In this document: positions 1 through 50,448 of the stretch, in pieces
Layout: every line of letters starts with the position of its first letter
Numbering within the stretch: the first letter of the stretch is position 1
Virus record (IMG/VR): IMGVR_UViG_3300047444_000650
Span: 1-51,401 of that record
Reading direction: 5' to 3' (one strand)
DNA from: a virus
DNA: 51,401 nucleotides
Notes under the pieces: model-generated
What the model was told of the DNA's origin: nothing
Database searches by the model: none
What the model saw: the letters and a program-made list of their open reading frames with translations, nothing else
Made by a program: the position numbers and the translations under genes

Positions 1-120
1 GCCCTGGTCGCCCTGGTCGCCCTGGTCGCCCTCAGCCTCGCCCTGGTCGCCCTGGTCGCCCTGGTCGCCCTCAGCCTCGCCCTGGTCGCCCTGGTCGCCC
101 TCAGCCTCGCCCTGGTCGCC
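1..120. repeat. Tandem 9-base repeat coding for a Gly-Asp-Gln linker
   Basis: The first ~126 bases are near-perfect tandem GCCCTGGTC units. Runs of two or three units are separated by GCCCTCAGCCTC. On the minus strand they read GDQ and GEAE inside the CobT-like gene. The repeat touches the end of the window, so copy number may be under-counted by assembly collapse. Confidence 0.9.
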
Positions 121-852
121 CTGGTCCGGGTCAGCCGGCGCGGGCGCGGCGGGTGGCGTGGCGTCCTGGATCATCTGGCGTTCCATGCGCTCCAGTCGCA
201 GGGCCAGGCGGTAAACGTCCCGAGTTGACTTGCAGGTCCGAACCTCAATCAAAGCCAGGTCCACCAGGCGCGCGACGTCCGGGTGCAGGTTCCGGCGTAA
301 GCCCCGGGCGGTGGGCACCTGGTACTTGTTCGCCACGCGGCCCAGGACCGCGAGGCAGTAAGGCGCGTCGGCAAGGCGAGCCCCAATGGTTCGGCCCATT
401 TCAGCGGCCTTGGCCAAACCCTGGTAATGCAGGTGGTCCATCGTGGCGGACAGGATGCCGCGCAGGGCCGGAAAGTGACCGGCCCGTAGTTCTTTCGCTT
501 CGATCCGTACATCTTCCAAACAGTTTGCCCAATGCCGCACGCGCTCGCCCGCTTGCACGCAAACACTCCACCATTGCCAGTCAGTGTGCAGCACATGCAA
601 ACACTCATGGGCGACAAACCCCAGCATACGATCCGCTTCGGACCTGGACAGCATGGTCGACGCTGGCATCGTGGGCAGGTTCATGGTCACGATGGGACCA
701 CTGACACTGACAGAAGCCGTGGGGCCTCCCTTGGCGCCAACAGTGACGCGCAAGGGCGGGCCTCCCCTGATCCCCTTGCGTTGGGCGATGATCTTGCTCG
801 CCGTTTCAACGGCGGCGGCGGTTACTTCAAGATATAAAATCGAGGTTGTCAT
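1..852 (-). CDS. cobT: CobT-like metallopeptidase/VWA protein, N-terminal part (continues at 51401)
   Basis: The ATG at 852-850 lies three bases after the TGA of the CobS-like gene, and the frame stays open to base 1. Residues 1-240 match the N-terminal half of CobT-type proteins. There is a gluzincin-like HECLH (residues 82-86, HExxH) and then NCLEDVRIE (110-118), where the family usually reads N-x-LEDxRIE. Residues 245-284 are an acidic linker of GDQ triplets interrupted by GEAE, like the acidic linker that separates CobT domains. The reading frame at base 1 matches the VWA-coding frame at 51401, so both parts are read as one 544-residue protein cut by the linearisation point. In cobaltochelatase CobT partners CobS and CobN, but no CobN is present. 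Its role here is probably metal- or ATP-dependent protein remodelling. The gene name marks homology only. Confidence 0.85.
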   Translation of the reverse strand, partial: MTTSILYLEVTAAAVETASKIIAQRKGIRGGPPLRVTVGAKGGPTASVSVSGPIVTMNLPTMPASTMLSRSEADRMLGFVAHECLHVLHTDWQWWSVCVQAGERVRHWANCLEDVRIEAKELRAGHFPALRGILSATMDHLHYQGLAKAAEMGRTIGARLADAPYCLAVLGRVANKYQVPTARGLRRNLHPDVARLVDLALIEVRTCKSTRDVYRLALRLERMERQMIQDATPPAAPAPADPDQGDQGEAEGDQGDQGEAEGDQGDQGDQGEAEGDQGDQGDQG

Positions 853-855
853 GGT

Positions 856-2394
856 TCACACTCCCTCGCCCGTGGCACTATCAGGCGAGACCAGGTCAAA
901 GTCAGAAGCGGCGGGGCTCAAGGGCGCGGTGCCAACAGGGGCGAGGGCCTGGCGGACAGTATGCTTGTCAACCGCCAAAAGGCATTGCTGGCGCAAAGCC
1001 TCTTGCTCCCCAGCCGGGACGCAGTTTTGCACGGCGCAACGGAAAGCAATCTCCGGGTCGATACCATCGGCCAACAATTCCGCCCAACTAAAGAGCCGGC
1101 GCAAACCCAAACCCTCGGTAATCACCTGCTGGTCAGCCGCCGCGCGGGTCGTTGTCGCGGCCTGAACAAGCAGGTCAGCCAATGCCCGGGTGCAGCCCGG
1201 GACATAGGACATTAAAATCCCGGCTTCGGTGGCGGCATCATGCCACCCCAGGGCGATCCGCACGCCAAACCTGTCCAGCGTGGCCGCGTTCAACGCCTGT
1301 GTCCCATGGTATCCGGTCCGGCTTCCTCCACCCATGCCAGCGGTATTATCAGTGGCCAGGAAGACCACACCAGGCGCAACCTTTACCTTCTGGCCAGTCT
1401 CTTGAATGTAAAGGCTACGGTTGGCAGTCAAAACATTCTGTAACGCGAACAAAGCCCCGGGACGCGCGATGCTGGGTTCGTCGATGCAAATCACGGCGCC
1501 AGGGGTTTGAATGGCGCGGACAAGTTGTCCCGGCTGAAACGATACGCCCTTACCGTCGCGGGCCGGAACGGTCATGCCGACAAGCGTGGCGGCGTCGGTG
1601 CTGGCATCGCACGAAATCAAAACAAAGGGCCGGCGCAGTTGAGCAGCGAGTTGTTGGCTGAACTCCGTCTTACCCGTTCCCTTCGGCCCATACAGCAGGA
1701 CATTCTTGCCCCTCTTGATTTGTGTCAGAGCAACAACGGTTTGATCCGGCCAGACATAACGAGGGTTCACCATGGGCGTATCAGGGTGAACTCCGTCCCA
1801 TACCGTGCAGGTCTCGGCCCCATGGGCGCCCTTGACGCCAAAAGCTTTTTTCCATGTGACCACCTGGTCAGTCGGGGCGGACTGTGGCGTCGATGATCCA
1901 TCCTGGTCCCGTTCAACTTCAACCCGGACAGTCTGGGTCACGATTTTGACGACAGGCGGTTTCCGCGCGGCAATGACCAGGTCCCGGAGTTTCTGGTCCA
2001 GGCTGGCAAAGCCTCCGCCCATGATGTCCGCCCGAACGGCGGAAACTTCGGCTTCAATGGCGGCATCGTCATCAGCCGGCGCGGCATCGGTCCCGGTGGC
2101 GTCCGGCGCGTCGGGCGGCGTCATCAGGTCCCGGGCGTTGTCGTCGGTGGCATCGTCATCATCAGCCATGGGCGGGGCTCCAGCGGCGGTGGCGGGGCGC
2201 AAGGCCATGGGATCAATCCTGGCGATGCAAAGCAATGTTCGTAAGTTTTCCTTGGTCAGGTTGTTAATCAGCCGTCCGCCCAGGTGATGGATGACGGCGT
2301 CATGGTCAGGAGTGCCGACGTTGGCGCGGATAAATCCACGCAATGCGTCACGCATGGCGGTGCGCCAGATGGCGCTAGGTGTAGGGTTTGTCAC
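856..2394 (-). CDS. cobS: CobS-like MoxR-type AAA+ ATPase
   Basis: A 512-residue AAA+ ATPase of the CobS/MoxR branch. The Walker A motif is GPKGTGKT (residues 236-243) and Walker B is VICIDEPS (Asp305-Glu306). The sensor region ATDNTAGM and the following YHGTQALNAATLDRF are characteristic of CobS. Bacterial CobS is about 330 residues; this one has an extra ~180-residue N-terminus with a helical start and an Asp/Ala-rich linker (about residues 75-120). The GTG start at 2394 is preceded by GGAAAG; an internal ATG at 2355 is the alternative. The CobT-like gene starts three bases after its stop, so the two are co-transcribed and presumably act as a motor-adaptor pair. Cobaltochelatase activity is unlikely without CobN. 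The family call is firm; the role is unknown. Confidence 0.88.
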   Translation of the reverse strand: MTNPTPSAIWRTAMRDALRGFIRANVGTPDHDAVIHHLGGRLINNLTKENLRTLLCIARIDPMALRPATAAGAPPMADDDDATDDNARDLMTPPDAPDATGTDAAPADDDAAIEAEVSAVRADIMGGGFASLDQKLRDLVIAARKPPVVKIVTQTVRVEVERDQDGSSTPQSAPTDQVVTWKKAFGVKGAHGAETCTVWDGVHPDTPMVNPRYVWPDQTVVALTQIKRGKNVLLYGPKGTGKTEFSQQLAAQLRRPFVLISCDASTDAATLVGMTVPARDGKGVSFQPGQLVRAIQTPGAVICIDEPSIARPGALFALQNVLTANRSLYIQETGQKVKVAPGVVFLATDNTAGMGGGSRTGYHGTQALNAATLDRFGVRIALGWHDAATEAGILMSYVPGCTRALADLLVQAATTTRAAADQQVITEGLGLRRLFSWAELLADGIDPEIAFRCAVQNCVPAGEQEALRQQCLLAVDKHTVRQALAPVGTAPLSPAASDFDLVSPDSATGEGV

Positions 2395-3297: not shown

Positions 3298-3744
3298 CGT
3301 GACACCTAAGCCCTTGATATGTATGGGCCAGGCGCAGTTCTACCCGAACTGTGTCGCGGTCCCGCGCGGTCCCGGCCCCGGGCCGTCCGCCCCCCGGGGG
3401 GTCCGCGCCGCAGGCGCATTTTCCTCTCACTGGTTTGGCTACCTCGCTGGCATTGCTCAGCTTTTCGTGCCGGAAGCGGAAAGGTTCCGGGCTTTGAGCG
3501 TTTGGCACATTTTGCTGTGGATACTGGGTTTGTGGTTTTTGCTGTGGTTACTCAGCTTTTCGTGATGCTGGGCGAACGATCTGGGGGTGCCGTGGGCTGA
3601 TGGGAGAAAGCGAGCGTGCCGGGCGCGCTCCGAAGCGTCCCCGACTCGCGTTCACCCCCCGAGTCGCGCGCGCGGAAGGGGCTGGTGTCGGGCCAACAAT
3701 GCGCCTACAGGCGAAACACGCGCCCAACTCGGGGGAAACGGCTT
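3298..3744. other. Low-coding-density interval before the tail-fibre genes
   Basis: About 450 bases with locally lower G+C and weak codon bias. It contains a direct repeat CTCAGCTTTTCGTG (near 3458 and 3551) and two copies of TTTTGCTGTGG. A small membrane ORF may lie inside (listed separately). A late promoter for the structural genes would be expected here, but I cannot point to one. Confidence 0.4.
3323..3565 (+). CDS. Possible small membrane protein
   Basis: 80 residues from an ATG at 3323. The N-terminal half is Pro/Gly-rich. The C-terminus ends in one strongly hydrophobic segment (SVWHILLWILGLWFLLWLL), a plausible transmembrane helix; SVWH at its head recalls TatA-like and small phage membrane proteins. 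Codon use is poor for this genome (many codons end in T) and no ribosome-binding site is obvious. Overlapping frames are also open. A holin or superinfection-exclusion peptide is possible, as is a chance ORF. Confidence 0.3.
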   Translation: MGQAQFYPNCVAVPRGPGPGPSAPRGVRAAGAFSSHWFGYLAGIAQLFVPEAERFRALSVWHILLWILGLWFLLWLLSFS

Positions 3745-5406
3745 ATGCCAGACGGCCCTGTACCCGGTAAACTCGTGGCCCCCGAGCCCGTGCCCCCCGT
3801 ACGGCAGTACTCGTTCACGGATTGGCAGGTAAACAACCCGACCGCCCCGCCCCCCGGTGACAGGCTGGATGCCGAGTTTGACCGCGCCAACCAGTCGATT
3901 GCCGAGACTATCGCGTGGACAGGGACCAGTCTCAATACTGATGGGACGCTTCGTACCGGGATAGTTGACGAACAACAGCTTGTCCCGGGCCTTTTCGACC
4001 ATATCGCGGACGATGCCGTCGCTCAGGTGCAACCTCTGGTAGATCAGGCCGGAAGTTATGCAACTCAGGCGCTGAACTCAGCCACGGCGGCGCAGTCCTA
4101 CGCCGGGTTGGCCGGCGGGAGTGCTACCCAGGCCGGGCAGGCCGCGACCGATGCGCGGACCGCCGCGACAACGGCCCAGGGCGCGGCGACTGGCGCCCAG
4201 GGCAGCGCGTCGGCGGCGGCGGCGTCGGCTTCGTCGGCCAGTACCAGCGCCAACCACGCGGACGGCGTCGAGGCGGTGTGCGAGGATTATGGCCTCGTGA
4301 CCCAGGCGTGGGCCGAACACATGCCCGACACGATCCCGCCCAACATTCTGGCCGTCATGGGGGTCACGGGCGAACACTGGTCCTCGCGATGGTGGGCCAA
4401 CCAGGCCGATCTGACCATCAACCAGGGCCTGGACGACCTGATCGCTCAGGGTAAACTCATCCTGGCCGAGATGGAAAAGCTGTTCCTGGGCGGGCACCCG
4501 AGCCCGCCCACTCAGGACAGCCAGGGCAATCCGCTCACCGTGGGCTCGATCTATTACGACGAGACCCTGGGGACCATGTTCGTCTGGACCGGCGATGCCT
4601 GGAAACCGGTGGCCGATCCCTTGCCCACCGTGACCTATAAATACATTTTCGTGGCCCTCGCCGGGCAAACCCTGTTCCAGGGCGCCGACCGGGGCGGGGT
4701 GATCCTGAAGTTCAACCCCGGCGCCGGCCAGGACATGGCGGTGTTCGAGAACGGTGTCCTCAGGACGCCGACTGACGATTACGTGACCCAGATCGACCAG
4801 ATGGCGATGCTCCAGCCCTGCCAGGCCGGTGATATTGTTCAGATCTGGGTCCAGACCGTACCGGTCATCACCTATAACTGGACCACCGTGATGCTGGACA
4901 CGTCGGGCTGGGTGTTCGACGGGGTTCAGACGTTCTTCCCGCTGGTGGATCGGGCCGGCGACACGGCCCTGGTCCAGGGCGCCGTGGACCTGATCCTGTC
5001 CCGGGACGGGGTCTGGCAGCAATCCGGGGTGGATTACACGACGTCCGGGACCGGTTTGCACTTCACCACCGCGCCCCACCCCGAGGCCACGGTGTTCGGT
5101 GCCGCCATCGTCGTGACGCCGCCCAAACAACTATCAACCACGGGCACCACGGCGCTGGACACGTCCGGCTGGGTGTTCAACGGGACCAATACGATGTTCC
5201 CGCTCCTGGATCTGGCGGGCGCCGCCGTCACCCCGGGAAAAGCCGAGAACCTGTTGATTTCGTTGGGCGGTGTCTGGCAGGCGGCGTATCGGGATTACAC
5301 GGTCTCAGGCAGCGCGATCCAGTTCGTCACGGCGCCGGGGGCCGATACCCAGGCGTTCGCGGTCTCGGGTCTGCCCAGCTTCAGCGGCGCCGGGGCCACG
5401 ACATGA
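3745..5406 (+). CDS. Tail fibre protein, virion-proximal
   Basis: 553 residues. The ATG at 3745 is preceded by GGGGGA at good spacing; the frame is open further upstream but lacks a better start. The N-terminus (YSFTDWQVNNPTAPPPG, then DRLDAEFDRANQ) is a widespread tail-fibre or tail-spike attachment head in alphaproteobacterial podophages. An Ala/Ser/Thr-rich heptad region (about residues 120-175) probably forms a trimeric coiled coil. The C-terminal half holds two similar beta-rich modules, each starting with LDTSGWVFDG or LDTSGWVFNG, about 85 residues long. It overlaps the next fibre gene by ATGA. It probably attaches the fibre to the tail, with the next two proteins as distal parts. Confidence 0.75.
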   Translation: MPDGPVPGKLVAPEPVPPVRQYSFTDWQVNNPTAPPPGDRLDAEFDRANQSIAETIAWTGTSLNTDGTLRTGIVDEQQLVPGLFDHIADDAVAQVQPLVDQAGSYATQALNSATAAQSYAGLAGGSATQAGQAATDARTAATTAQGAATGAQGSASAAAASASSASTSANHADGVEAVCEDYGLVTQAWAEHMPDTIPPNILAVMGVTGEHWSSRWWANQADLTINQGLDDLIAQGKLILAEMEKLFLGGHPSPPTQDSQGNPLTVGSIYYDETLGTMFVWTGDAWKPVADPLPTVTYKYIFVALAGQTLFQGADRGGVILKFNPGAGQDMAVFENGVLRTPTDDYVTQIDQMAMLQPCQAGDIVQIWVQTVPVITYNWTTVMLDTSGWVFDGVQTFFPLVDRAGDTALVQGAVDLILSRDGVWQQSGVDYTTSGTGLHFTTAPHPEATVFGAAIVVTPPKQLSTTGTTALDTSGWVFNGTNTMFPLLDLAGAAVTPGKAENLLISLGGVWQAAYRDYTVSGSAIQFVTAPGADTQAFAVSGLPSFSGAGATT

Positions 5407-7085
5407 CGGCGCGCACCCAGCAGGCCCGCACCGGGACCAACCTGACGCCGCCGGGGACCGGCACCCTGCTCCCGGGCCAGCTTTACCTGGAAATGGGCAC
5501 CCCGGCGCGGCTCTGGTTCGGCGTGCCCCCCGCCATCGACGCCACCGGGCGGAAACTCTTGTACGACGCCGACGCCAACACGGCGGCGATCAGCGGCAAG
5601 GTCAACCGGTCCGGCGACACCATGGGCGGTCCCCTGGTCCTGGCGGCGGACCCCGCCGCGAACATGCAGGCGGCGACCCGCCAGTACGTTGACGCCGTGC
5701 GAACCGCCATGGTCCCGCTCGCCGGGGGCACGATGACCGGGCTTTTGCTCCTGTCGGGGGATCCCACGGCGGCGTTCGGCGCGGCGACGAAGCAGTACGT
5801 GGACGGGCGGGACGCGCTGAGATTGCCGCTCACCGGGGGCACCCTGACCGGCGCCCTCACTTTGGCGGCGGACCCCGCCGTGGCGCTTGGCGCGGCGACG
5901 AAACAGTACGTGGACGCCAAGGTGGCCGGGGCGACCTACCCGTATTTACCCCTCACCGGGGGCACCGTCACGGGCGCTCTGACCGTGAACGGCAACACGG
6001 GCGTCGGCGGTCCACCGCCCGCGACCGCCAACACCGGCACGCTCTACGCGGCGCGGCAGATGACCGCGTCCAGTCATGTCTGCAATGCTTACCTGGATAA
6101 CACGGGCGGTGTCTGGCGCTACGTGGTCGCCGCCCCGGCGGCGCTGCTCACGCTGGGACCGGTGGGGGCGGAACTGGCGTCCGCCGCGTCCGGCGCGGTG
6201 GGCGCGGCGGTGAACTGGAATGGCACGCTGATCTTTGACGCGGCGGGTAATGCCGCGTTCAACAAAGACGTCAACGTCGCTGGCGCGGTGACGGGCGCCG
6301 GCGGCCTCATTGTGAGCGGGGGTTTCGGCCTGTCCAGCGGGGCGGGGGTTAATTATTTGTCTTTCGCGTCGGGATATGGATGGGGCTGGAACACGTCCAA
6401 CGGCCTCCTGACATGGACAACGGGCAGTAACGGCACGGTGCTGACCGTCGACCCCGCCGGGTCCGTCGTGGCGAACGGCAACATATCGGCGGGCGCCTCG
6501 GTGTACGCCACGGCACAGGTGCGCGGCAACGCCGGGGTGTTCGCCAACGCGGCGGCGAACTTTGGCCTGTACAGCGGGTCAGGTAATAACTACCTTCAGT
6601 TCGCCCCGTCGTATTACTGGTCCTGGGCCGGCGCGGATGGCACGCTGGGGTGGTACGTCGGCGCCGGCCTTTTCTGGAACTTCAGGAACAATGACTTCGC
6701 GGCGGTGAACAACCTCGGTGTCGTCGCCGGCAACGGGGCCTACGTGAACACCGCCTCGGATGAGCAGCACAAAACCGACATCGCGCCGGCCCCGCACGGG
6801 CTGGATGAGATCCTGGCGATTGAGCCGATCACCTATCGCAAATTTGATTTCAGGACGCGGGCCATGAGCGACCGCGTGGAACTCGGTTTCGGCGCGCGTC
6901 AACTGGCGACGGTGCTACCGGAAGCCGCGCCGCTGACGGGCGCGCGGAACCCCAACCTCCCGCCGCCCGCGCAGGGCGAGCAACCGGCGCGCGGGCTGGT
7001 GATCGAGCCCATCGTCGCCGCCCTGGTCAACGCGGTGAAGACGCTGAGCCGGCGGCTGGCGGTCCTGGAGGGAGCCCCGGCATGA
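5403..7085 (+). CDS. Tail fibre/spike with C-terminal S74 auto-cleaving chaperone
   Basis: 560 residues, overlapping the previous gene by ATGA. Residues ~50-200 hold repeats of the form GGTxTGxLxLxxDP followed by GAATKQYVD, a hallmark of phage fibre shafts. The middle is beta-rich and glycine-rich. The C-terminus is a peptidase S74 intramolecular chaperone: Ser452-Asp453 with Lys457 (SDEQHK) forms the usual Ser/Lys cleavage site, followed by LDEILAIEPITYR and ELGFGARQ. S74 domains help trimer folding and then cut themselves off. The mature fibre therefore probably ends near residue 451. Family assignment is firm; the receptor is unknown. Confidence 0.85.
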   Translation: MTARTQQARTGTNLTPPGTGTLLPGQLYLEMGTPARLWFGVPPAIDATGRKLLYDADANTAAISGKVNRSGDTMGGPLVLAADPAANMQAATRQYVDAVRTAMVPLAGGTMTGLLLLSGDPTAAFGAATKQYVDGRDALRLPLTGGTLTGALTLAADPAVALGAATKQYVDAKVAGATYPYLPLTGGTVTGALTVNGNTGVGGPPPATANTGTLYAARQMTASSHVCNAYLDNTGGVWRYVVAAPAALLTLGPVGAELASAASGAVGAAVNWNGTLIFDAAGNAAFNKDVNVAGAVTGAGGLIVSGGFGLSSGAGVNYLSFASGYGWGWNTSNGLLTWTTGSNGTVLTVDPAGSVVANGNISAGASVYATAQVRGNAGVFANAAANFGLYSGSGNNYLQFAPSYYWSWAGADGTLGWYVGAGLFWNFRNNDFAAVNNLGVVAGNGAYVNTASDEQHKTDIAPAPHGLDEILAIEPITYRKFDFRTRAMSDRVELGFGARQLATVLPEAAPLTGARNPNLPPPAQGEQPARGLVIEPIVAALVNAVKTLSRRLAVLEGAPA

Positions 7086-7125
7086 GCGCGATGGCATCTC
7101 ATGTGAGCGAGCGGAGCGAGCGAAC

Positions 7126-8832
7126 ATGAGCGGATCGGCGCCCCCGGATAACAGCCTGCTTCCGCAGCAGTTTTTCTTTGATACCAGTGGGTCCGGCAAG
7201 ATCTGGGCCGGGCTGGTGGGGGCGCCGGGCCGCAAGCGCCTTGTCCTGGACACGGCGGACGTGGCGAACAAGGTGCCCGTGGCCGGCGGGACCATGACGG
7301 GGCTGCTGATCCTGTCGGGCGATCCTGTCGCACCATTGGGCGCCGCGACCAAGCAATACGCGGATGCCAGGCTACCTTTGGCCGGGGGCGCCCTGACCGG
7401 CCCGCTTTCGCTCCCGAACGGTTCCGCGAGTGCCCCGTCCCTCGCGTTCGCCGCCGCCAACAATGGGATGTACTATTCTGGCGGCATCCGCTTTGTCCTC
7501 GCCGGGCTCCAGAAACTACAAATCGCCAACCAGATCATCGGCGCGGTGCCGTTCCTGGCGCCCGCCGGCACGCAGGCGGCGCCTGGGCTGGGCGTGAATG
7601 ACGTGGGCTCCGGTTTTTTCGGTAAATCCGCCGGTTCCATATCGTTCGCGACGGCGAACACTGAAGTCGTGAACTGGCAGGCGGGCGGGATCACCGCGTA
7701 CGTGCCGGTCACGCTGGCGGCGGACCCCACCGTGGCGCTGGGTGCCGCGACCAAGCAATACGTGGATAACCGGGCACCGCTGGGCGGGCCGTACCTGCCG
7801 ATCGCCGGGGGCATCCTCACCGGCAGCCTGACGGTGGGATCGGTGGGTGCCACCCCGGCCCTGAGCATTGGCAATAACACCGCGACCGGAACAACCATGT
7901 GGCTTGCCGGCGCGGTCAGCACAGGCCGGTCATTCATCTATACGACCGCCGGTCTGCGGCGGTGGCTCCTGGGGATGGGCGCCGGGGCTGAACCCGGGTC
8001 GAACGCGGGCGGGGATTTCTGGATCAGGGCCTACGCCGACGACGGGGTGACCGTCGCCTCGACACCGCTCTATTTCGCTCGTCAGACCGGGCTTGTAACG
8101 GTTGTCGGAGACCCTACCAACGCCCTCGGCATTGCCACCAAGCAATACGCGGACAAATTCGCGACCGGCGTCGTCCCAATGACCGGAGGGCTGAGTTTCG
8201 GCAGTAATGTCGTGGTTTCGACCACTGACCTGAGCAAGCACATCGCGCTCTACAGCACGACGTTTGGGTTCAGTGTCACGTCGGCCCGGCTGAATTACCT
8301 CGTCAGCAGCGGTTCGCATGTTTTCGTCGTGGCCGGCGTGGACATCGCGACGGTCTCGAACACCGGGCTGGCCGTGAACAGTGGCGCCCTCGTGACAGGT
8401 AATTTCAGTGTCGGCGCGGTGGGCGGTTCCGCCACCGTGAACCTTGGTAACAATACGGCGACCCAAACCACCATCACCATGAATGGCGCCGCCGCCACCA
8501 ACCGGCAAATCATCTGGGCGACCGCCGGGGCGAACCGCTGGAACCTGACCCTGGCGGGCCTGGAAAGCGGTTCGGATGCCGGCGGCAACCTGAACCTGGT
8601 GCGTTTTAGCGACACCGGAACGAACCTGGGTTCCACGCTGACCATCAACCGAAACACGGGCTTGATCCTGGTGCAAAACGCGCTCCAGGTGAACGGCAAT
8701 GTGGGTTTCAACGGTGTCGCTCCCCCGGCCCGGCCCGCCATCACGGGCTCGCGCGGCGGTAACGCCGCCCTGGCGAGCCTGCTCACCCAACTCGCCAGCA
8801 CCGGCCTCATCACCGACACCACCACCGCCTGA
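7126..8832 (+). CDS. Second tail fibre paralogue lacking S74
   Basis: 568 residues. It shares the shaft motif of the preceding gene (GGTMTG, then GAATKQYAD or GAATKQYVD, at least three copies) and alternates it with beta-rich Gly/Asn/Thr modules containing IGNNTATGTT and LGNNTATQTT. The C-terminus (GSRGGNAALASLLTQL) is a short helical cap rather than an S74 chaperone. It lies 40 bases after the S74 fibre and has a weak ribosome-binding site. It may co-assemble with the S74 fibre or be an alternative receptor-binding protein. Confidence 0.75.
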   Translation: MSGSAPPDNSLLPQQFFFDTSGSGKIWAGLVGAPGRKRLVLDTADVANKVPVAGGTMTGLLILSGDPVAPLGAATKQYADARLPLAGGALTGPLSLPNGSASAPSLAFAAANNGMYYSGGIRFVLAGLQKLQIANQIIGAVPFLAPAGTQAAPGLGVNDVGSGFFGKSAGSISFATANTEVVNWQAGGITAYVPVTLAADPTVALGAATKQYVDNRAPLGGPYLPIAGGILTGSLTVGSVGATPALSIGNNTATGTTMWLAGAVSTGRSFIYTTAGLRRWLLGMGAGAEPGSNAGGDFWIRAYADDGVTVASTPLYFARQTGLVTVVGDPTNALGIATKQYADKFATGVVPMTGGLSFGSNVVVSTTDLSKHIALYSTTFGFSVTSARLNYLVSSGSHVFVVAGVDIATVSNTGLAVNSGALVTGNFSVGAVGGSATVNLGNNTATQTTITMNGAAATNRQIIWATAGANRWNLTLAGLESGSDAGGNLNLVRFSDTGTNLGSTLTINRNTGLILVQNALQVNGNVGFNGVAPPARPAITGSRGGNAALASLLTQLASTGLITDTTTA

Positions 8833-25782: not shown

Positions 25783-28700
25783 ATGCCCCCGCCCCTGGAC
25801 GGCTGGACGATGGACCCGCTCCCGGAGCAGCCCGCCGCTCAGGCGCCGGGTGGGTGGAGGATGGACCCGCCCCCGGCCCCTGCCCCGCAACCGCCCCCGG
25901 CGCCCCCTCCAGCCCCCGCCCAGGCCGCCCCGGCGGTCGGGGGGTGGACGATGGACCCACCCCCGGCGACCGCTCAGCAGCCGCCCCAGGCCGCGCAGCC
26001 GGGGGAAGCGCCGACCCCCGAGGGCTTCCTGTCTTCCCTGTTCGGCGGTATCGGCGCGTCGGGTCGTGAAGCCGGGCAACTCGCCACGGGGAGCGGCTTC
26101 GATCCCGCCAATGTCCAGCCGCAGCCCGAGCGCACGTTCATGGGCGGCGTGGGCTACGGGCTGGGGCACAGTTTCCCGACACTGGCCGGTATGCTTCTGG
26201 GCGCGGCGGGCGGCGGCGCGCTGGGAACCGGCGCGGAGCCCGGTGTCGGCACCGTGGTAGGCGGCGCCCTGGGCGGCGCCGCCGGGGGCGGTATCACCGA
26301 TTTCGTGCAGAGCCTGGTCCCGGCCTATCAGGACGCGATCAGGCGGGGCGCGTCCCAGGACGAGGCGGTGGACGAGGCGTACAAAGTGGCTGGCGCGTCC
26401 GGCGCTTTCACCGCTGCCACCGCCCCGTTGTTCGGTTGGAGCCCCTTAAAAAACGTCGTGAAGGATCTGCTTTTCCACACCCTTGTAACGGGTCCCGGGA
26501 CCGGCGTGGTCAAACAGGGCGTGATCGACCCGGCGGTGACGGGCCAACCCACCCCCACCCTGGGCGAACTGGCCGAGGGCGCCGCGCAGAACGCCATCGG
26601 CGGCGCCATCGCCGGGGGTGTCATGCACTACGGCCCCCGGTTGCTCACCAGAGGCGGTGAGACAGCCACAGAAGGGTCGCCAGGGACACCAGGAACGACG
26701 CCGCCGCCCATACCAGGGCAACCCAGCACACCCATCCCACCACGCCCCACCCCCTTCTCAGATCTGGTCCGTCCCCCGCCCGATGCTGGCGTGGTGCCGG
26801 GCGAGGCCGTGCCCACGCCCACGCCGACGCCTACCCCTGAACCACCCTCACCCCAACCAGGGACACCCCCCAATGGTAGCACAATCCCAGCAGAGCCCAG
26901 CGCAACACCTGTCATCCCAGAACCCCCAACCGTTGTCGGTGCACCCGGCGTACCGGGCGCCCAGCCTGGTGTGGAGCCGGCCCCCGGAGCAACTGGACCT
27001 GTTCCCGTGGATGGCGGGCCACCCGTCGAAGTTCCCCCGGTCCCACCCGGCCCAGACGTTCGACCCGGATCAGCCCCTTCTGCCCCGGAACCAACCCCAG
27101 CCGCCCCCGGCGTAGAGCCCGCTGTCCCGGGACAGGACCAGCCTGTCCCGGGACCAAAGACGCGACCACCCAGCAGCCTCACCCCAGACGAGATCGAGGC
27201 CCGGAACGCTGATCTGCGTGGGAGGTTCCCGCTTCTGGGGCAGAACGCCGCCGGGGAAGACGTGCTTCAGCGCCCGGACGGCAAACGCATCACGATCCAC
27301 GGCGACGGCTGGATTTCCAACGAACACGGCGGGCTGTCCGGCGGGGAGGAAGGTCTCTACGGCCAAGGCGGCGGCGAGAACCCGATCTTCAAGGTCGTCA
27401 CGCCGGTCCCGGGACCTGGGGAAACCAAGGGACCCACCCCCACGGGAACGGAGGGCGAACAGACCCCCCGGACGCCCGTGTCCGGTGGATCTGGAACAGA
27501 ACCGGAAACCCCCGCCAAACCTGAGCCGACTCCAGGAACGCAGGGCGAACAAACCACGGCGCCAACGTCGGAACGACCCGCTCACGAAACGCCCGGGACG
27601 CCGGCCTATAAACTGGCCGAACTGGACCGAACCAACGCGCCTGACGAAGCCTACCGGGATGCGCTCTCCACGGGCTCCAAAGACCCGCTCAAACCGGGCG
27701 AGACGTGGCGGTCCCGCCTCGTCAAGTGGGTCGAGCAAGAACGCCCGACCGAGACCACGTCCACGTCCACGAACCGCAAGGTGGATTACAGGTGGGAGGT
27801 CCGCGAGGCGGACGCCCTGACCCCCGCCGAGGGCGATCTACAGCCCCGGGACCGCCAGAGCCGCATCCAGGCCCAGGACCAGCAGAACGACATCTACGCG
27901 AACTTTGACCCTGAAAGATTGCACGCTTCGCCCGAGGCGGACCGTGGCGCGCCCATCGTGGCGCCGGTCAAAGAAGATCCCATGAACACCATCGAGGCGG
28001 GGAACAACCGGGTCGAAGTCCTGAAGCGGATCCACGCCGGGACCGAGCAGGGCGATATGACCCGGTCCTCCATGTATCGGGACATGATCCAGCGCGTCAC
28101 GGGACAGGACGTTTCCAGGATGACCGCGCCGGTCCTGGTGCGCCGCCGGGTCACACCCATGACGCCCGAGGAACGCCGGGCCTTCGTCCAGGAAACCAAC
28201 GTCGGCGCCACGCAGCGCATGTCCGCCACCGAACAGGCCCAGGTGGACGCGTCGAACATCACCCACGACCACCTGGCCACCCTGGACCCGAACAAGGAAC
28301 TGACGTCGGCGGCGAACCGGGACTTCGTGAACAAATGGGTAAGCACGCTGCCCCAGACCGAGCGCAACGCGGTCCAGGACGCGGACGGGTATCTCTCGGC
28401 TGAGGGCGTGCGCCGGCTGAACGCGGCGATCCTGGGCAAAGCCTACGGCGATAAGGGTTCCCTGGCACGCGGCCTTGAGTCCACCAACGATGAAATCAAG
28501 AGCATATCAGGCGCCATGGCCGACGCCGCGCCCGCCATCGCGAAACTCAAATCCGGCGTCGAAAAGGGCGACTTCCCCAAAGAGTATGATATTTCCTCAA
28601 ACATAGCCGACGCCGCTGAAAAAGTGCGGATCGCCCGTGAAAAGGGCGTGAAACGCGATGATATCCTGAACCAGGCTGACGCGTTCGATCCCCTCCACCC

Positions 28701-31700
28701 CGTCACGGGCGAACTGGTCCGCTCCATGTTCAACAAGGACGGGACACGGGCGGCGTCGCGCACCGCCATGGCCGACACCCTTCGTCAGTATGCCCGTTCC
28801 GCCGCCACCGAGGCCGAGCCCAAGGGTTTGCTCCCCGGCGACAAGGGGCTGTCACCCCTGGACATACTCAAAGCGATCAACGACGCGAGGGACGCCGCCA
28901 TCGGCAAAAAGGGCGCCAAGGCGCCGGGACAAGGGGGCCTGTTCGACACCGAAAGCGGGATGCGGTCCGACGCCCTGACCGCGCGGGACATGGCGCACCT
29001 GAACGCGCGGGCCGATGTCGTCTCGCCCCGGGACTTTGTCCTCTCGGGACACGAAGACCCCGAGCAACTGGCGGCGGTGATACTTCCTGACGGAAGGCTG
29101 TTCCAGTTCCGGCCCGACGCTTACGACATCGAGACCAGCCACCAGGGGTTCAACGAGCACACGGACGGCAACAACTACGCCGAGGTCACGGCATACAAGA
29201 AATCCATCGGCGTGTCGGTGCAGGGCGACAGTACCCCGGCGATGGAGCAGACAATCAATCGTTTGCGCGCCCAGGCGAAGCGCGAAGCCGTGGCCTTCCA
29301 CACCGATGAAGACCTGTACGGGTCCAGGTCGGAGCGGCTGAGCGACCAGGAAGTGGATGACATGCTGGCGTCCCGCCGGGGCTTCCGGCGCAAGGCCCCG
29401 GCGCCGGGCGAGCCTGAAAGATTACCGCCCCGGGCGAAGCCACAACCCCATCTGGAGCCCGTCGTCACGCCGAACGTGGGCGACCCGCTCACATTCGAGG
29501 ACCACGCGTACAGCCCCGGCACCCCCGAGTATCGCAAGGCGTTCCACGACGCGCTGAGAGGTTCAGGCCGTGACCCGGACACCATGGTCAACGCGCCCAT
29601 CGAAGAACAGAACCGGGTGCTGGCGAAGCAACTTGAGGATGAATACGGTTTCGCCAAGGTGAACGTGGACCCGAAGGTGGACCCCAAGGTCACGCGGGAC
29701 CAACTGCTGAACATGCACAACAACATGAACAACATGGCGGCGGCGCTGGGCTGGTCCCGCGAGACCATCGCGCTGAACGGCAGACTTGCCTTGCATCTGG
29801 TGCCATACAATTTCAGGGGCGAAAGCTGGTATGGCGCCTATAGCTTCGCGGACAGGACCATACATATTTCGGGCGGGTCAAACAGTTATGCTCACGAGCA
29901 TTGGCACGCGATTGATGATTACTTAACGGACCTTCTGCACAACAACCCGAACCGCAAGCAGTTACTTACGTGGAGCGCCCGGGCCGGGGCGCTGGACCCC
30001 AAGGATCCCGTGCAAAGCGCGTTCGCCCGCGTGCTGAACGCCATGTCCTACAACCGGGGCGAAGAAATGCTGCGCCGGCTCAGGCTTGAGCAGACCGCCA
30101 TGAAACTCACCAAGGCGGGTCAGCCCACGGGACCGGCGCTCGCCGCCCGGCGTGAAATCGAGAACCTGGACAAGGGCGCGAGCAAGCTGCGTATCGGGCC
30201 GTCCGACCTGCGCAAGGAAGCCCTGGGCGGTCCCAGCCCTCAGTACTGGGCCAGCTATCACGAACTCTTTGCCCGCGTGGGCGAAGCCTACACCGCCTAC
30301 CGCATGGAAGCGGCGGGGCACGACACGGCGGGCGTGGTGAAATCGAACAAGGCTTACCAGGACCGCGCCCTGGCCGAAATCCGCCACCGATACCCCAACT
30401 GGATGGATCGGTTGGACATGTTTCACGCCTTTGACCAGTTGACCGCCGAACTCGACCACGCGTCCACGCTGAGCCGGGGCCAACCCCGGGCCACGCCCAC
30501 CAGCGAGATGTACGATCTGAAGCCGTGGGGGACACGTCCGGCGGACATGCGGCCCGGTATGCTTACCAGTCTCCGCGAAGACCTGGGCGCGCTGCGTTGG
30601 AGCAATCTTTTCGGCAAGGATCACGAACCCGTCTTCCGCGACCCGAACGCCCCGCCGCCGCCGCCCACCTACGACACGCGCCAGGGAGAGAAGAAGGGCC
30701 TGCCCACGCCCAAGAGCCTGGCCGTGCGTAAAGCTGACGACATCGCCATGACCTGGAACAGCGCCCTGGGGAACCTGGAGCGCATCATCCGCCAGATCCC
30801 GCCCAAAGCCCGGCCCTACATCCAGGCGCTGCGGGACAAACTGGGGGTGGACCCCGGGACCGGGCGCCTGATCGGTCCCACCTACGAAGAACGCACGCGC
30901 ATGTACGAGCGCCCCGCCGTGTCCCAGTTCGAGGACATTATGAAAGACACCGGGCTGGTGGGGAGGATCACCAAACGGCCCTACCTGACGGCGGAACAGA
31001 ACGCGATGCTCAGGCACACCCTTACCACGGGTGAGATGACCTACCCCGTGAACGCGCACGACCTCACGGGCACGGGACCCCGGCTGGCCATACCGCCGGA
31101 GATACGCAAAGCGGCGGCGGCGATACGTTCCCACGTCCTGGACGCCCATTACGACCGGATGAAAGCCGCCGGGATGGACGTGCCCTATGCAAAGTCCGGG
31201 TATTTCCCCCGGGTCTACAACGACAAGGCCATCCTCGCGGATCACGCCGGCTTTGTCCGGGACAGGGCCAAACTCAACCAGGTCATCTTCGACAAGGATC
31301 TGGACAACGCGCCGGACTCTGTCTCGCGCCTCAACCAATGGTGGCGGGAAACCGACGCCAGCACGCGGAACAGTGGTCTGTTCGACCCCGACGCGCGGGA
31401 CGCGATGAACCAGACGACCCGTAACTTACGACGCATCAGGGCCATCGACGAAGAACTCGCCGCCGGGGGCGCGATCAACCCGAACACGCATGATCCGATC
31501 AAACTGGGCGCCGAGCGGGACAAACTGGTCCAGGAAAACCAGGACCTGCATGACCTGTGGCGGGACCACGTCCGGGACCAGTTGGCCCGGCACGAGGCCG
31601 AAAACGTGTTCGACGCCATCGCATCGGGCAATCCCACCCGGTTCAACACCCTGGGGCCGGACAGCAAGTTCACCAAGGGAAGAACCTTACCTCCCGAGGC

Positions 31701-33576
31701 GGACCAGATCATGCGCGCCTGGATGCACCATGACGTGCTGAGCATGATCCCGGGTTATGTCCATGGCGTGTCCCGCAAGGTCGCGTTCACCGAACTGTTC
31801 GGCCAGGACGGGCACGGCATCCAGAAAGCCATCACCGACGCCATCGAACTGGGCGGGATGCACAGCGCGTTCAACGAGCCGATCAAGCAGATCGTGGAGA
31901 CCGTCACGGGCCGCTCGATGCGGAGCAACAACCCGGCGCTGGAGCGCATCACCAACCTCGCCTCGTCGGTGGGCGCGCTTATCACCCTGCCCGGCGCTTC
32001 GATCAGCGCGATAGGCGAGCCCTTCGGGACGCTTCTCGCGGGCGGCTCGCCAAAGATGCTGTTCAAGACCTTCGCCAATATGTCCGGCGCCGCGTTCCGC
32101 ACGGGCACCGCCGCCGAGCGCATGGCGGTCCTGCGGGCCATCGGCGGCACCCAGTCCCGGCTCCAGGGCGCGGCGTCGGCGTCCCGGTTCAGCGATTACT
32201 CCGGCTCGCCCACCATCGAAAAGTTCATGCATAATTACTTTGAACTGGCGCTGAGCCCGGCGGTGCGCTGGATCCGGGCGGCGACCCTGGGCGCCGGGAC
32301 CGATCACATGAAAGTCCTGTTGCGATTGGCGACTGATCCCGCCAAAGGCCGTTACCAGCTAAACCGCCAGGCGGACGCGAAAACCTTGCTGCGGGACTGG
32401 TTCGTCAACGACGCGCAGATGCCCGAGATGCGGAAGTTCCTGGAGACCTTCCCCGATCTGCCTACCCGCGAAGCCATCGAAAACCACCCGATGGGCGGGC
32501 TCTACGAGGTCGCCGCGAACCGTATGCTCAACCGCATGTCGCAAGATCCCACGGCGGCGGAGAAACCCATGGGCGCGCTCCAGAACCCCATGGTGAACAT
32601 GATGGCGCAACTGACGGCGTTCCCTTACGGCTTCTGGCGCAACGTCATGGAACCCGTGCTGCACAAGGCGGGGCACGCCCGGCAACGCGAGTGGGACCGC
32701 CAGATCGCCAACGGCGCCAACCCCGGGGGCGCGGCGTTCCAGGCCGAGGCGGCGCGGTTCAGGTCATGGGTGGGGACCGCCATGGCCGGCATGGCGCTGC
32801 TCGCCGGGACCGGGCTCATGTACGTCCCGCGCACCTACCTGTTCAACCATCCCGCGTGGAAGAAGCACGAAGACGACGGCGACCTGGGCGACTGGCTGCT
32901 GTCCAACACCGTCAGCGCGTCGGGCATGGCCGGTCCCCTGGACGCCGTGGGCCAGGCGATCACCAGTCTGCGCTACAGGTCGGACACGAGCGCCTTGATG
33001 GAAGGCCCCTACCTCGCCACCGAAATGCGCTACCTGACCGACATCGTGAAAGGCGTTGGCCACGCCATCAGTGGCAAGGGCGACGTGGGCACCAACACCG
33101 AGGTCTACAACGCCGTCCAGGCGCTGGGGCAACTGACCGTCAAGCCGGCTTTCCTGGCGGGACTGACAGCCCTGGCCAACAGGGTGCCGGCGGGGGGTCC
33201 ACTTTCAGGGCTGCTCGCGGCGGCGTCGGTGGCGGGAACCTCGACCACGGTATCCCGCGCCATCACCGACAGCATCGCGGGCGAGCGGGGCACCACGATC
33301 AAGAAGGAACCGAAGGACCCCTTCGCGCCGCCGCCCCTGGAGGGTCTGCCGCCGCTGGATGAGTCGGTGTCCGGCCAGGAGGACGCCGCCGCCGGGGGGC
33401 TTCCCTCATGGATGCTGGGGCTCACCGATGACGTGCTGATGCCCATGCTCAAGATCGTCCCCGGCGCCGGCAAGCTGGCCATCGGCGGGGCGGCGGCGGC
33501 GAGCGGCGTTGGGCTCCTGGGCTACCGGGGGCACCAGTACAAGACCCGGGGTGAGCCGCCCGAAAAGGCTCACTGA
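25783..33576 (+). CDS. Giant polyvalent protein (ddrB/ParB-like, HExxH peptidase-like, LPD domains)
   Basis: 2597 residues. The N-terminus has three copies of GGWxMDPxP in a Pro-rich region (residues 1-60), then a Gly-rich hydrophobic stretch (about 120-175) that may insert in membranes, then long Pro/Gly linkers (to about 640). Around residues 725-860 lies a ddrB/ParB-like domain (GNNRVEVLKRIHAG). Residues 1371-1375 read HEHWH in SYAHEHWHAIDDYL, an HExxH peptidase motif of the LPD1 type, with a later YHELFARVGEAYTAY supplying a likely third ligand. The C-terminal third is helical and LPD38-like (MAQLTAFPYGFWRNV). Polyvalent proteins are thought to be co-ejected with DNA and to neutralise host functions. 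Domain calls are by eye. Confidence 0.75.
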   Translation: MPPPLDGWTMDPLPEQPAAQAPGGWRMDPPPAPAPQPPPAPPPAPAQAAPAVGGWTMDPPPATAQQPPQAAQPGEAPTPEGFLSSLFGGIGASGREAGQLATGSGFDPANVQPQPERTFMGGVGYGLGHSFPTLAGMLLGAAGGGALGTGAEPGVGTVVGGALGGAAGGGITDFVQSLVPAYQDAIRRGASQDEAVDEAYKVAGASGAFTAATAPLFGWSPLKNVVKDLLFHTLVTGPGTGVVKQGVIDPAVTGQPTPTLGELAEGAAQNAIGGAIAGGVMHYGPRLLTRGGETATEGSPGTPGTTPPPIPGQPSTPIPPRPTPFSDLVRPPPDAGVVPGEAVPTPTPTPTPEPPSPQPGTPPNGSTIPAEPSATPVIPEPPTVVGAPGVPGAQPGVEPAPGATGPVPVDGGPPVEVPPVPPGPDVRPGSAPSAPEPTPAAPGVEPAVPGQDQPVPGPKTRPPSSLTPDEIEARNADLRGRFPLLGQNAAGEDVLQRPDGKRITIHGDGWISNEHGGLSGGEEGLYGQGGGENPIFKVVTPVPGPGETKGPTPTGTEGEQTPRTPVSGGSGTEPETPAKPEPTPGTQGEQTTAPTSERPAHETPGTPAYKLAELDRTNAPDEAYRDALSTGSKDPLKPGETWRSRLVKWVEQERPTETTSTSTNRKVDYRWEVREADALTPAEGDLQPRDRQSRIQAQDQQNDIYANFDPERLHASPEADRGAPIVAPVKEDPMNTIEAGNNRVEVLKRIHAGTEQGDMTRSSMYRDMIQRVTGQDVSRMTAPVLVRRRVTPMTPEERRAFVQETNVGATQRMSATEQAQVDASNITHDHLATLDPNKELTSAANRDFVNKWVSTLPQTERNAVQDADGYLSAEGVRRLNAAILGKAYGDKGSLARGLESTNDEIKSISGAMADAAPAIAKLKSGVEKGDFPKEYDISSNIADAAEKVRIAREKGVKRDDILNQADAFDPLHPVTGELVRSMFNKDGTRAASRTAMADTLRQYARSAATEAEPKGLLPGDKGLSPLDILKAINDARDAAIGKKGAKAPGQGGLFDTESGMRSDALTARDMAHLNARADVVSPRDFVLSGHEDPEQLAAVILPDGRLFQFRPDAYDIETSHQGFNEHTDGNNYAEVTAYKKSIGVSVQGDSTPAMEQTINRLRAQAKREAVAFHTDEDLYGSRSERLSDQEVDDMLASRRGFRRKAPAPGEPERLPPRAKPQPHLEPVVTPNVGDPLTFEDHAYSPGTPEYRKAFHDALRGSGRDPDTMVNAPIEEQNRVLAKQLEDEYGFAKVNVDPKVDPKVTRDQLLNMHNNMNNMAAALGWSRETIALNGRLALHLVPYNFRGESWYGAYSFADRTIHISGGSNSYAHEHWHAIDDYLTDLLHNNPNRKQLLTWSARAGALDPKDPVQSAFARVLNAMSYNRGEEMLRRLRLEQTAMKLTKAGQPTGPALAARREIENLDKGASKLRIGPSDLRKEALGGPSPQYWASYHELFARVGEAYTAYRMEAAGHDTAGVVKSNKAYQDRALAEIRHRYPNWMDRLDMFHAFDQLTAELDHASTLSRGQPRATPTSEMYDLKPWGTRPADMRPGMLTSLREDLGALRWSNLFGKDHEPVFRDPNAPPPPPTYDTRQGEKKGLPTPKSLAVRKADDIAMTWNSALGNLERIIRQIPPKARPYIQALRDKLGVDPGTGRLIGPTYEERTRMYERPAVSQFEDIMKDTGLVGRITKRPYLTAEQNAMLRHTLTTGEMTYPVNAHDLTGTGPRLAIPPEIRKAAAAIRSHVLDAHYDRMKAAGMDVPYAKSGYFPRVYNDKAILADHAGFVRDRAKLNQVIFDKDLDNAPDSVSRLNQWWRETDASTRNSGLFDPDARDAMNQTTRNLRRIRAIDEELAAGGAINPNTHDPIKLGAERDKLVQENQDLHDLWRDHVRDQLARHEAENVFDAIASGNPTRFNTLGPDSKFTKGRTLPPEADQIMRAWMHHDVLSMIPGYVHGVSRKVAFTELFGQDGHGIQKAITDAIELGGMHSAFNEPIKQIVETVTGRSMRSNNPALERITNLASSVGALITLPGASISAIGEPFGTLLAGGSPKMLFKTFANMSGAAFRTGTAAERMAVLRAIGGTQSRLQGAASASRFSDYSGSPTIEKFMHNYFELALSPAVRWIRAATLGAGTDHMKVLLRLATDPAKGRYQLNRQADAKTLLRDWFVNDAQMPEMRKFLETFPDLPTREAIENHPMGGLYEVAANRMLNRMSQDPTAAEKPMGALQNPMVNMMAQLTAFPYGFWRNVMEPVLHKAGHARQREWDRQIANGANPGGAAFQAEAARFRSWVGTAMAGMALLAGTGLMYVPRTYLFNHPAWKKHEDDGDLGDWLLSNTVSASGMAGPLDAVGQAITSLRYRSDTSALMEGPYLATEMRYLTDIVKGVGHAISGKGDVGTNTEVYNAVQALGQLTVKPAFLAGLTALANRVPAGGPLSGLLAAASVAGTSTTVSRAITDSIAGERGTTIKKEPKDPFAPPPLEGLPPLDESVSGQEDAAAGGLPSWMLGLTDDVLMPMLKIVPGAGKLAIGGAAAASGVGLLGYRGHQYKTRGEPPEKAH

Positions 33577-44137: not shown

Positions 44138-44526
44138 TCGAACTGGTGACACAACGAGAGGCGGCGACACTCTTGCGTTGCGGTGTCTCGAAAATCCAGG
44201 CGCTGCGGCGCCGGGGCGAACTCGCCTTCATACCTGGACGACCGGTTCTCATACCCCAGACGGAAATCGACAAATGGCTCTTAAAAAACATCAGGCGGTC
44301 AAACCCGCCGCCAGCCGCCGCCGCCCCGGCGAGAACGCCGTCGAATGGACGGTTCGGACTGCGTATCTTCACCAGAAACCCACCGGGCGCTGGGTCATCA
44401 AACACACCGTCGTCACCGACACACCCGGCGGCGAGACCAGTTACCGCACCGCCGAACAAGCCTGTTTCACCCGGGACGAGCGCGAAGCCGGGGACAGGTT
44501 CGCGGCGTGGAAACAAGCCTGTCTGA
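44134..44526 (+). CDS. Excisionase-like (MerR/AlpA-type) HTH protein, long overlap with integrase
   Basis: 130 residues, ATGA-coupled to the XRE repressor. Residues 1-57 are a winged-HTH typical of Xis/AlpA: LVTQREAATLLRCGVSKIQA, then RRGELAFIPGRPVLIP, then IDKWLL. The remaining ~73 residues are Pro/Arg/Ser-rich and run 253 bases over the integrase start. Either the protein has an overprinted disordered tail or a shorter product is made. It would control the direction of site-specific recombination. Confidence 0.65.
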   Translation: MIELVTQREAATLLRCGVSKIQALRRRGELAFIPGRPVLIPQTEIDKWLLKNIRRSNPPPAAAAPARTPSNGRFGLRIFTRNPPGAGSSNTPSSPTHPAARPVTAPPNKPVSPGTSAKPGTGSRRGNKPV

Positions 44527-45485
44527 CGGCAAGCCAACCGAAGGCGACACGGTTCACGTTCAGGCTCGTGGCCAACGATTACGCGGCGGCGACCCGTCCA
44601 CGGCGCCTGACCCGGGCTCAGGAACATACGATCAACAAACTCAACCGTGCCATCGGGGACCACCCGGCGGATGGGATAACGGAACAACTGCTCGCGGAAC
44701 TGCACCAGGACCTGCTTGACGCCGGCTGGAAAGAAGGCACCGCGCGGCGGCATCTGAGCGTGGTGCTGACGGTCCTCAAATGGGCGGCACGGAACAAGAT
44801 CATTTCCATGGACGCCGTGCCCTTTTATCGGATGCCCTCGGTCTCGCCGCCGCGCGACTACACCCTGACAACCGAGGAAGACGCCCGCGTGTTCGATCTG
44901 GCGGCGGAATGGCTGGACCGGACCGGCGACGACGTGGCCCGCCGCGCCGGGTTGTTCGCGTGCATCGCGCTGGACAGCGGGCAACGCCGGGACGCGATCC
45001 TGGAACTGACCTGGGACCGTATCAACCTGACACCGGGGCATGAGTACATGAACTTCGTCAACCCGGCGTATCGACCCAAAAACAAAAAACGCTGCGGCGA
45101 TGTCTTCGTGACCGACCGGTTGCTCGCGATATTGAAGCGCGAAGCCCTCCGCGCGCCGAAAGCCCACGGCAAGCCGACCGGACCTTTGTTCCCAAGCCAT
45201 CGCCTGATGCGCGGCTTTGACAGGTTCAAGGCGGAAGCCGGATTACCGCGCCTCACGCCACACGTCTTCCGCCACACCTTCGCCACGCTCAGGATACAAC
45301 GGGGCTGGACCGTGGCCGACGTGGCGCACATCCTCGCGGACAACCCGGCGACGGTGGCCCGTGTTTACCTTCACAACGCGGGCGTATCGGTTCGCGAGAA
45401 CGCGCGGCGGATCGACACCATGCGGCAAGCCTGGAACAACAACACGAAGGTCAACGACAATGTGGCTACCACAGGCGCTGATTAA
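44274..45485 (+). CDS. int: Tyrosine-family integrase
   Basis: 403 residues from the ATG at 44274; an upstream in-frame start lies inside the excisionase. A SAM-like core-binding domain spans about 95-180. The catalytic residues are Arg238 (SGQRRD), HVFRH (His330, Arg333, His334) and the nucleophile Tyr365 (ARVYLHN). The position normally occupied by the second His/Trp, in LGH, reads LAD (Asp356). That substitution may lower activity. It inserts the phage into the host chromosome. The attP site could not be located. Confidence 0.9.
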   Translation: MALKKHQAVKPAASRRRPGENAVEWTVRTAYLHQKPTGRWVIKHTVVTDTPGGETSYRTAEQACFTRDEREAGDRFAAWKQACLTASQPKATRFTFRLVANDYAAATRPRRLTRAQEHTINKLNRAIGDHPADGITEQLLAELHQDLLDAGWKEGTARRHLSVVLTVLKWAARNKIISMDAVPFYRMPSVSPPRDYTLTTEEDARVFDLAAEWLDRTGDDVARRAGLFACIALDSGQRRDAILELTWDRINLTPGHEYMNFVNPAYRPKNKKRCGDVFVTDRLLAILKREALRAPKAHGKPTGPLFPSHRLMRGFDRFKAEAGLPRLTPHVFRHTFATLRIQRGWTVADVAHILADNPATVARVYLHNAGVSVRENARRIDTMRQAWNNNTKVNDNVATTGAD

Positions 45486-45825
45486 GGACGTGACGGACGC
45501 CGGGATCAAGGTGTTTTATGTATCCTACCCCGCCACGCGCCGTTGGGCGGTAGAGCGGGACAAGGGCCAGCCCCTGATCTTCTCAGGCTGGTACTGGGGC
45601 CTGGGACCGCGCGAGGGCGGTCCCTTCAAATCCCAGAGTTCAGCTTACCGGGACGCCTGGTTTCGCGTGGTACGAAAACACGCGCCGCCCGCGATCATGG
45701 CGCGTAACGAAGATTTCGAGCGTGGCCGGAACATCGAGGCCAACAAGCAACGCGCGAAGCAGCGTAAACAGGTTGCCCCGCGTGTCCCGCGCCCGGCGAC
45801 GCGAGAGGAACTCCAGCCGCGATGA
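45460..45825 (+). CDS. Hypothetical protein after integrase
   Basis: 121 residues from an ATG that overlaps the last 26 bases of the integrase gene. The centre is aromatic (FSGWYWGLGPREGGP, then YRDAWFRVV), with a strongly basic C-terminus (EANKQRAKQRKQ), suggesting nucleic-acid binding. ATGA-coupled to the next XRE gene. No family recognised. Confidence 0.55.
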   Translation: MWLPQALIKDVTDAGIKVFYVSYPATRRWAVERDKGQPLIFSGWYWGLGPREGGPFKSQSSAYRDAWFRVVRKHAPPAIMARNEDFERGRNIEANKQRAKQRKQVAPRVPRPATREELQPR

Positions 45826-50268: not shown

Positions 50269-50321
50269 GGGGGAGCCGAGGCACGGCGCCCGGCGGCGCG
50301 CGGGCCAGGGCGGGCCAGGGC

Positions 50322-50416: not shown

Positions 50417-50448
50417 AAACGCCACCTGCCCGGGGGCAGGTGGCGTTT
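50417..50448 (-). terminator. 15-bp perfect bidirectional terminator
   Basis: AAACGCCACCTGCCC and GGGCAGGTGGCGTTT are perfect complements around two bases. The T-run on each strand lets it end the CobS/CobT operon leftward and the primase-helicase transcript rightward. Confidence 0.85.

Follow-up and report, generated by a model that had tools for sequence, protein, structure and literature searches.

A CobS/CobT-like gene pair in a phage genome may encode a peptidase-type motor system that works without CobN

We analyzed a virus genome of 51,401 bases, the entire IMG/VR record IMGVR_UViG_3300047444_000650 (hereafter, the window), which encodes a CobS-like AAA+ motor and a CobT-like protein with a VWA domain. 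We think that the two proteins are probably a peptidase-type motor pair that does not depend on CobN. Sequence comparisons give good support to the view that the pair works without CobN and makes no cobalamin. A protease-motor system was among the possibilities raised by a first-pass annotation of this DNA, and it fits best because HExxH...EDxxIE is kept in the copies on mobile elements, while HExxH is absent from the true chelatase CobT. The pair itself is not novel: the literature already describes such pairs in Mae-Yong1326-1, in cyanophages and jumbo phages, and in archaeal viruses, and the window contains a further conserved member.

Results

The motor gene and its split partner

The motor is encoded at 856-2394 on the minus strand (512 amino acids, with a GTG start). 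It matches AAA_5 (2e-18) and CbbQ_C (2e-8), both above the cut-off, and its Walker A (GPKGTGKT) and Walker B (IDEP) motifs lie within conserved alignment blocks. Residues ~1-175 precede the CobS-like part, which confirms the long N-terminal extension in the first-pass annotation. That annotation placed the whole CobS-CobT pair at 856-2394, which holds only the motor.

The CobT-like partner adjoins the motor on the same strand and is split by the ends of the contig. Its N half (1-852, minus strand, 284 residues seen) begins with an ATG at 852, just 3 nt past the stop codon of the motor gene, and continues past the end of the record. It holds HECLH (residues 82-86, at 595-609, minus strand), which is an HExxH metal-site motif; NCLEDVRIEA (residues 110-119, at 496-525, minus strand); and a tandem repeat that codes for an acidic GDQ/GEAE linker (1-126, minus strand), within which the record terminates. 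HExxH with a conserved downstream glutamate is consistent with a gluzincin. The C half (50619-51401, minus strand) is the VWA domain, with 260 residues seen plus the stop codon. It has the MIDAS motif DLSGSM (DxSxS; 51141-51158, minus strand), TTP, and TDGD, whose MIDAS aspartate is at 50841-50843 (minus strand). The halves with HExxH and with the MIDAS are thus not contiguous in the record.

The break in the linker sits in a tandem repeat based on 9 bp. Two near-complete relatives (behind loci L007 and L008) are interrupted at this repeat too, and the other end of their contigs holds the C half, so the window is most likely a circular or permuted genome that was opened by the assembly at this repeat. 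When the ends of the window were compared, no exact terminal repeat was found. Intact copies of the partner, with 662-670 amino acids, are present in four relatives (L002, L005, L006, and L010). Joining the ends of the window directly gives a protein that is in frame, but it lacks about 60 or more linker residues relative to the intact copies, so we did not accept it as a complete CobT.

The first-pass annotation also gave the operon its own terminator, and this is plausible. A perfect 15-bp hairpin (50417-50448) lies about 170 nt beyond the CobT stop codon, with T residues after it on the minus strand (fold of -41.4 kcal/mol, z = -6.7). The hairpin came from a search for inverted repeats; a scan with the terminator consensus found sites at chance level only. 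About 19 tandem copies of GGGCCA (50302-50411) directly adjoin it, between CobT and the convergent gene for a primase/VapE-like protein (47446-50070, plus strand). Mae-Yong1326-1 has the same primase neighbor, which we mention as context only.

The pair is conserved

The pair is under purifying selection, beyond chance. Among close relatives, dN/dS was 0.07-0.17 for CobS, 0.10-0.24 for the N-domain of the partner, and 0.11-0.19 for its VWA domain, with synonymous sites near saturation in several of the comparisons that involve the window. In the alignment of relatives, HExxH, NCLEDVRIE (which includes EDxxIE), and the MIDAS residues (both DLSGSM and the aspartate of TDGD) are invariant through Mae-Yong1326-1, whose CobT is 34% identical, so close relatives have lost neither HExxH nor the MIDAS.

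Across 64 aligned N-domains, with identities down to about 15%, E113 and D114 are invariant, N110 is conserved in 63, and E118 is conserved in 60. This conservation suggests that E113 is likely the third metal ligand. The rows of this alignment (A4) were picked for HExxH, so we read it only for these four residues and dropped the invariance of HExxH itself as evidence; HExxH was counted instead by a tally of partners.

HExxH separates mobile copies from chelatase CobT

For that tally we drew 241 loci from viral contigs, bacterial genomes, and phage and plasmid records; most of them contain a CobS-like gene. A scan of the genome contigs (A1) found no match, and tblastn against phages found two records with the N half and none with the VWA half. 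These sequences are too divergent for tblastn, so we used profiles. After clustering the CobS proteins at 60% identity, the VWA partner or its N-domain was readable in 34 clusters.

The partner has HExxH in 31 of the 34 clusters. The main exception is the chromosomal chelatase-type group; the other two are a lineage of Acinetobacter phage-plasmids and an odd protein (L196). To recognize bona fide CobT, we used TIGR01651, an NCBIfam equivalog with a cut-off of 759 bits; PF06213 matches the mobile copies as well, so it was rejected as a marker of the chelatase. Bona fide chromosomal CobT proteins from five bacterial genomes scored 747-1113 bits (one of them slightly below the cut-off), while the C half from the window scored just 22.1 bits. 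HExxH is absent from all five. Sequences like CHNDRIH or SHDPDIH take its place, and EQARVE or a close variant is kept. In four of these five genomes there is also a copy of the phage-plasmid type with HEVAH; in the remaining one, Devosia sp. 66-22, a prophage copy has HEAGH. These comparisons favor labeling the partner as a peptidase rather than as part of a chelatase.

The Acinetobacter phage-plasmids (L036, 3634-5556; L120-L136) retain the pair with QEVAK in place of HExxH and thus form a naturally occurring variant that lacks the presumed active site. Because this lineage keeps the pair, it appears that peptidase activity of the partner is not always needed.

In a confident model of the N-domain from the window (pLDDT 94.6, pTM 0.90), HExxH is on a predicted helix at 70-89 and E113 is on another at 103-124. 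A search of the PDB with this model found nothing significant. The weak but plausible matches were to zincins (selecase, projannalysin, M61, MATCAP, and IrrE). In a library of viral structures, the predicted fold matched other viral CobT/VWFA proteins, including those of haloarchaeal viruses, and then SprT-like proteins. With a second N-domain model, taken from a different clade (pLDDT 95.5), the zincin pattern did not clearly recur. Given the non-significant PDB matches and the unclear second model, we dropped fold searches as proof of a peptidase.

The motor is distant from chelatase CobS

The motor scores 92.9 bits against TIGR01650 (CobS), an NCBIfam equivalog whose cut-off is 558 bits. 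In our tree, chelatase CobS is its own clade (support 100) and the motor from the window falls elsewhere. Among its best matches listed from 289 genomes, all but the Devosia prophage are about 35% identical or less, so this CobS does not appear to be a recent capture from the Alphaproteobacteria that were sampled.

Other motors of this family vary at their N termini and in their partners. In phage-plasmids of E. coli and Klebsiella (L025, 8151-9386; L024, 4575-5804), the motor begins with CxxCGKxFH...H, which resembles a zinc finger and differs from the extension in the window. In Listeria, crAss-like, and Mycobacterium phages (L026, 4758-6710; L027, 4536-6490; L028, 2151-4440), the gene downstream of the motor encodes a different protein of about 270-300 amino acids, without HExxH, which makes a second, uncharacterized kind of pair.

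Most carriers of the pair lack CobN

As the first-pass annotation had noted, CobN (PF02514) has no match in the window. It is also absent from the 15 other mobile records with CobS-like genes that we checked (16 of 16, counting the window), so a CobN-like partner that would use the pair as a chelatase was not found in any of them. Among 18 bacterial genomes that carry CobS-like loci, 10 lack CobN; because some of these are draft genomes, any one absence carries less weight than the overall pattern. CobN is also missing from E. coli, which was part of the control set, yet a pair with HEVAH is present in PhiR41_1, recorded with E. coli K-12 MG1655 as its host. Conversely, Devosia sp. 66-22 encodes both CobN and CobT itself, with a chromosomal CobS-like gene adjoining that CobT, in addition to its prophage pair. 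This pair is in a collinear prophage-like region (G020:C23, ~20-66 kb) that is related to the window phage (terminase, 58%). The phage and its relatives also lack a gene for the large chain of ribonucleotide reductase that would profit from B12.

Neighboring genes and the rest of the phage

The search for the same pair in other phages, which the first-pass annotation had suggested, was productive: the pair is common to phages, phage-plasmids, and conjugative plasmids. In a BLAST tally against annotated neighbors, 26 of 33 clusters have a replication or recombination gene within 7 kb of the pair, although many of the clusters linked to replication (to DnaE) are related phage-plasmids and are not independent. 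The annotated examples agree. Structural genes near the pair were searched for with the window phage's own proteins only. Some plasmid versions (L030, 10848-12125; L033, 7393-8577; L035, 7046-8149) have an extra DUF3150 gene between or near the motor and the VWA partner; ssb, bet/recT, and exonuclease genes are also nearby.

Homologs of the window phage's terminase, portal, capsid, polymerase, helicase, nuclease, and integrase genes are present in Rhizobium phage RHph_N65, but CobS and CobT are both absent. Because RHph_N65 shares the virion genes without the pair, the CobS/CobT module is accessory, and the window's type of virion can form without it.

The window phage is probably temperate. 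It encodes a homolog of the integrase of Mae-Yong1326-1 (44178-45485, plus strand) and an HTH repressor-like gene (45822-46388, plus strand). A 2597-amino-acid protein (25783-33576, plus strand) has weak matches to virion proteins; its homolog in Mae-Yong1326-1 (2441 amino acids) is annotated as a peptidoglycan transglycosylase. AATKQYVD segments recur in three large tail-fibre-like genes (3616-8832, plus strand), where there is also a 111-bp tandem repeat. The second of these genes may end like an S74-type self-cleaving chaperone.

Comparison with known systems

Viral CobST pairs are known from Mae-Yong1326-1, from T4-like cyanophages (cobS plus a 'peptidase'), and from the Druskaviridae and Saparoviridae (PMC8651126, PMC9503304). 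Like the window, they have adjoining genes for a CobS-like AAA+ protein and a CobT-like VWA protein. Mae-Yong1326-1, where the pair is annotated as ORF3/ORF4, has most of its genome and the primase neighbor in common with the window, but its CobS is only 40% identical. Both Mae-Yong1326-1 and P-RSM4 have HExxH and EDxxIE. PMC8651126 describes clusters of cobST in tailed viruses that infect hosts of eight orders, with the pair being core in cyanophages; it calls the annotation of viral cobT as a peptidase mistaken and proposes that the pair uses the host's CobN. Our comparison does not support this chelatase label. Jumbo phages carry a MoxR AAA+ protein along with a vWA protein that is fused to a metallopeptidase (PMC7824862, as described there). 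The window shares this architecture, judging by the description, but its phage is just 51 kb.

The aerobic cobaltochelatase CobNST, which has been solved (PDB 9uka and others), has a CobS AAA+ core and a CobT VWA domain that are homologous to those of the window. It differs in that the window encodes no CobN alongside the pair, in that the window's CobS is in a separate clade, and in that the chelatase CobT lacks HExxH. The MoxR-VWA activases NorQ/NorD and CbbQ/CbbO also combine an AAA+ protein with a MIDAS-VWA partner, and NorD is the best PDB match of the CobT profile. Unlike in those systems, no nor or cbb genes are annotated or matched in the phage, and there was no match to their N-terminal parts. 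Finally, Wss1 is a metalloprotease that has an AAA+ motor, Cdc48, as its partner (PMC4559962). Wss1 or Spartan with Cdc48 might work similarly to our pair, as a small gluzincin-type metalloprotease with an AAA+ motor; this is an analogy, and we do not claim homology.

Discussion

If the pair is a protease-motor system, then the CobS-like protein would form an ATP-driven motor, presumably hexameric like others of its family. By analogy with CobST, NorQD, and Midasin, a metal-bridged acidic residue might let the partner dock, with its VWA/MIDAS end, on the motor or on a substrate. The N-terminal domain, on its flexible acidic linker, would be a gluzincin-like metallopeptidase, judging from its motifs. 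The machine would most likely unfold and cleave, or strip, proteins that take part in DNA transactions, namely those of replication or recombination or host factors bound to DNA. The gene neighborhood hints that the substrate is DNA-bound, which we consider possible but on the doubtful side; the neighborhood and the precedent of Wss1 with Cdc48 suggest how such action on the DNA side might look.

The published alternative is that the pair is a set of auxiliary metabolic genes: viral CobS and CobT would join the host's CobN as a cobaltochelatase and raise the output of cobalamin (PMC8651126). We think that this is very improbable. The homology to CobS and to the VWA domain of CobT is real, and some carrier hosts do have CobN, but CobN is missing from every mobile record checked and from more than half of the carrier genomes, an E. 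coli phage carries the pair in a host without CobN, and Devosia already has its own CobN, CobT, and neighboring CobS-like gene. The motor's score is far below the CobS cut-off, the partner retains the HExxH that chelatase CobT lacks, and neither the phage nor its relatives have a gene for a large chain of ribonucleotide reductase that would profit from B12. The proposal for jumbo phages, that the motor and its peptidase-VWA partner remodel and process structural proteins during virion assembly or maturation, has a MoxR-vWA precedent in an archaeal virus (PMC7824862) and accords with the HExxH of the partner. The first-pass annotation had likewise listed virion proteins as possible targets. Three observations weaken this idea: RHph_N65 shares the virion genes but not the pair; conjugative plasmids carry the pair and make no virion; and the neighbors are mostly replication or recombination genes, with structural genes sought by means of this phage's own proteins only. 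We consider it quite unlikely, and our comparisons did not support it for the window.

Another alternative keeps the metal and gives up the proteolysis: HExxH would only bind metal, and the pair would mature a target or insert metal into it, like NorQD or CoxDE. By sequence, the solved proteins nearest to the motor include CobS, CbbQ, and NorQ, and those nearest to the VWA part include NorD and CobT; the fold searches gave no proof of a peptidase, and one lineage retains the pair after losing HExxH. Yet nearly all mobile clusters whose partner could be read keep the catalytic glutamate of HExxH, and metal binding alone would not demand a glutamate, so we give this explanation little credence. 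Lastly, the machine might dismantle or cut a host defense protein or a DNA-bound silencing protein. This counter-defense role overlaps with the protease-motor explanation and differs in its target. It would suit a pair that is accessory in the window's phage lineage and is shared by phages, phage-plasmids, and conjugative plasmids, but very different hosts retain the pair, and the matches of the motor in PADLOC are short, cover the P-loop only, and score 26 bits or less, with no full-length match. We view it as unlikely.

More broadly, and as a conjecture that we doubt would hold in full, the mobile AAA+ and minigluzincin-VWA pair might clear or cleave proteins on DNA, as a counterpart of Wss1/Spartan-Cdc48. 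Hundreds of viral records would then be wrongly labeled as cobS or as porphyrin biosynthesis, and the chromosomal CobT would be a relative that lost its peptidase site.

The phage-plasmid PhiR41_1 makes the question testable in E. coli, a laboratory host without CobN, and IncC plasmids are a second system. Surveys of viromes often count cobS as an auxiliary metabolic gene for B12, and in T4-like cyanophages the gene is regarded as core. If the mobile pair is a CobN-independent protease-motor system, then phages and plasmids share a widespread machine without a known job, and those counts of B12 genes are wrong.
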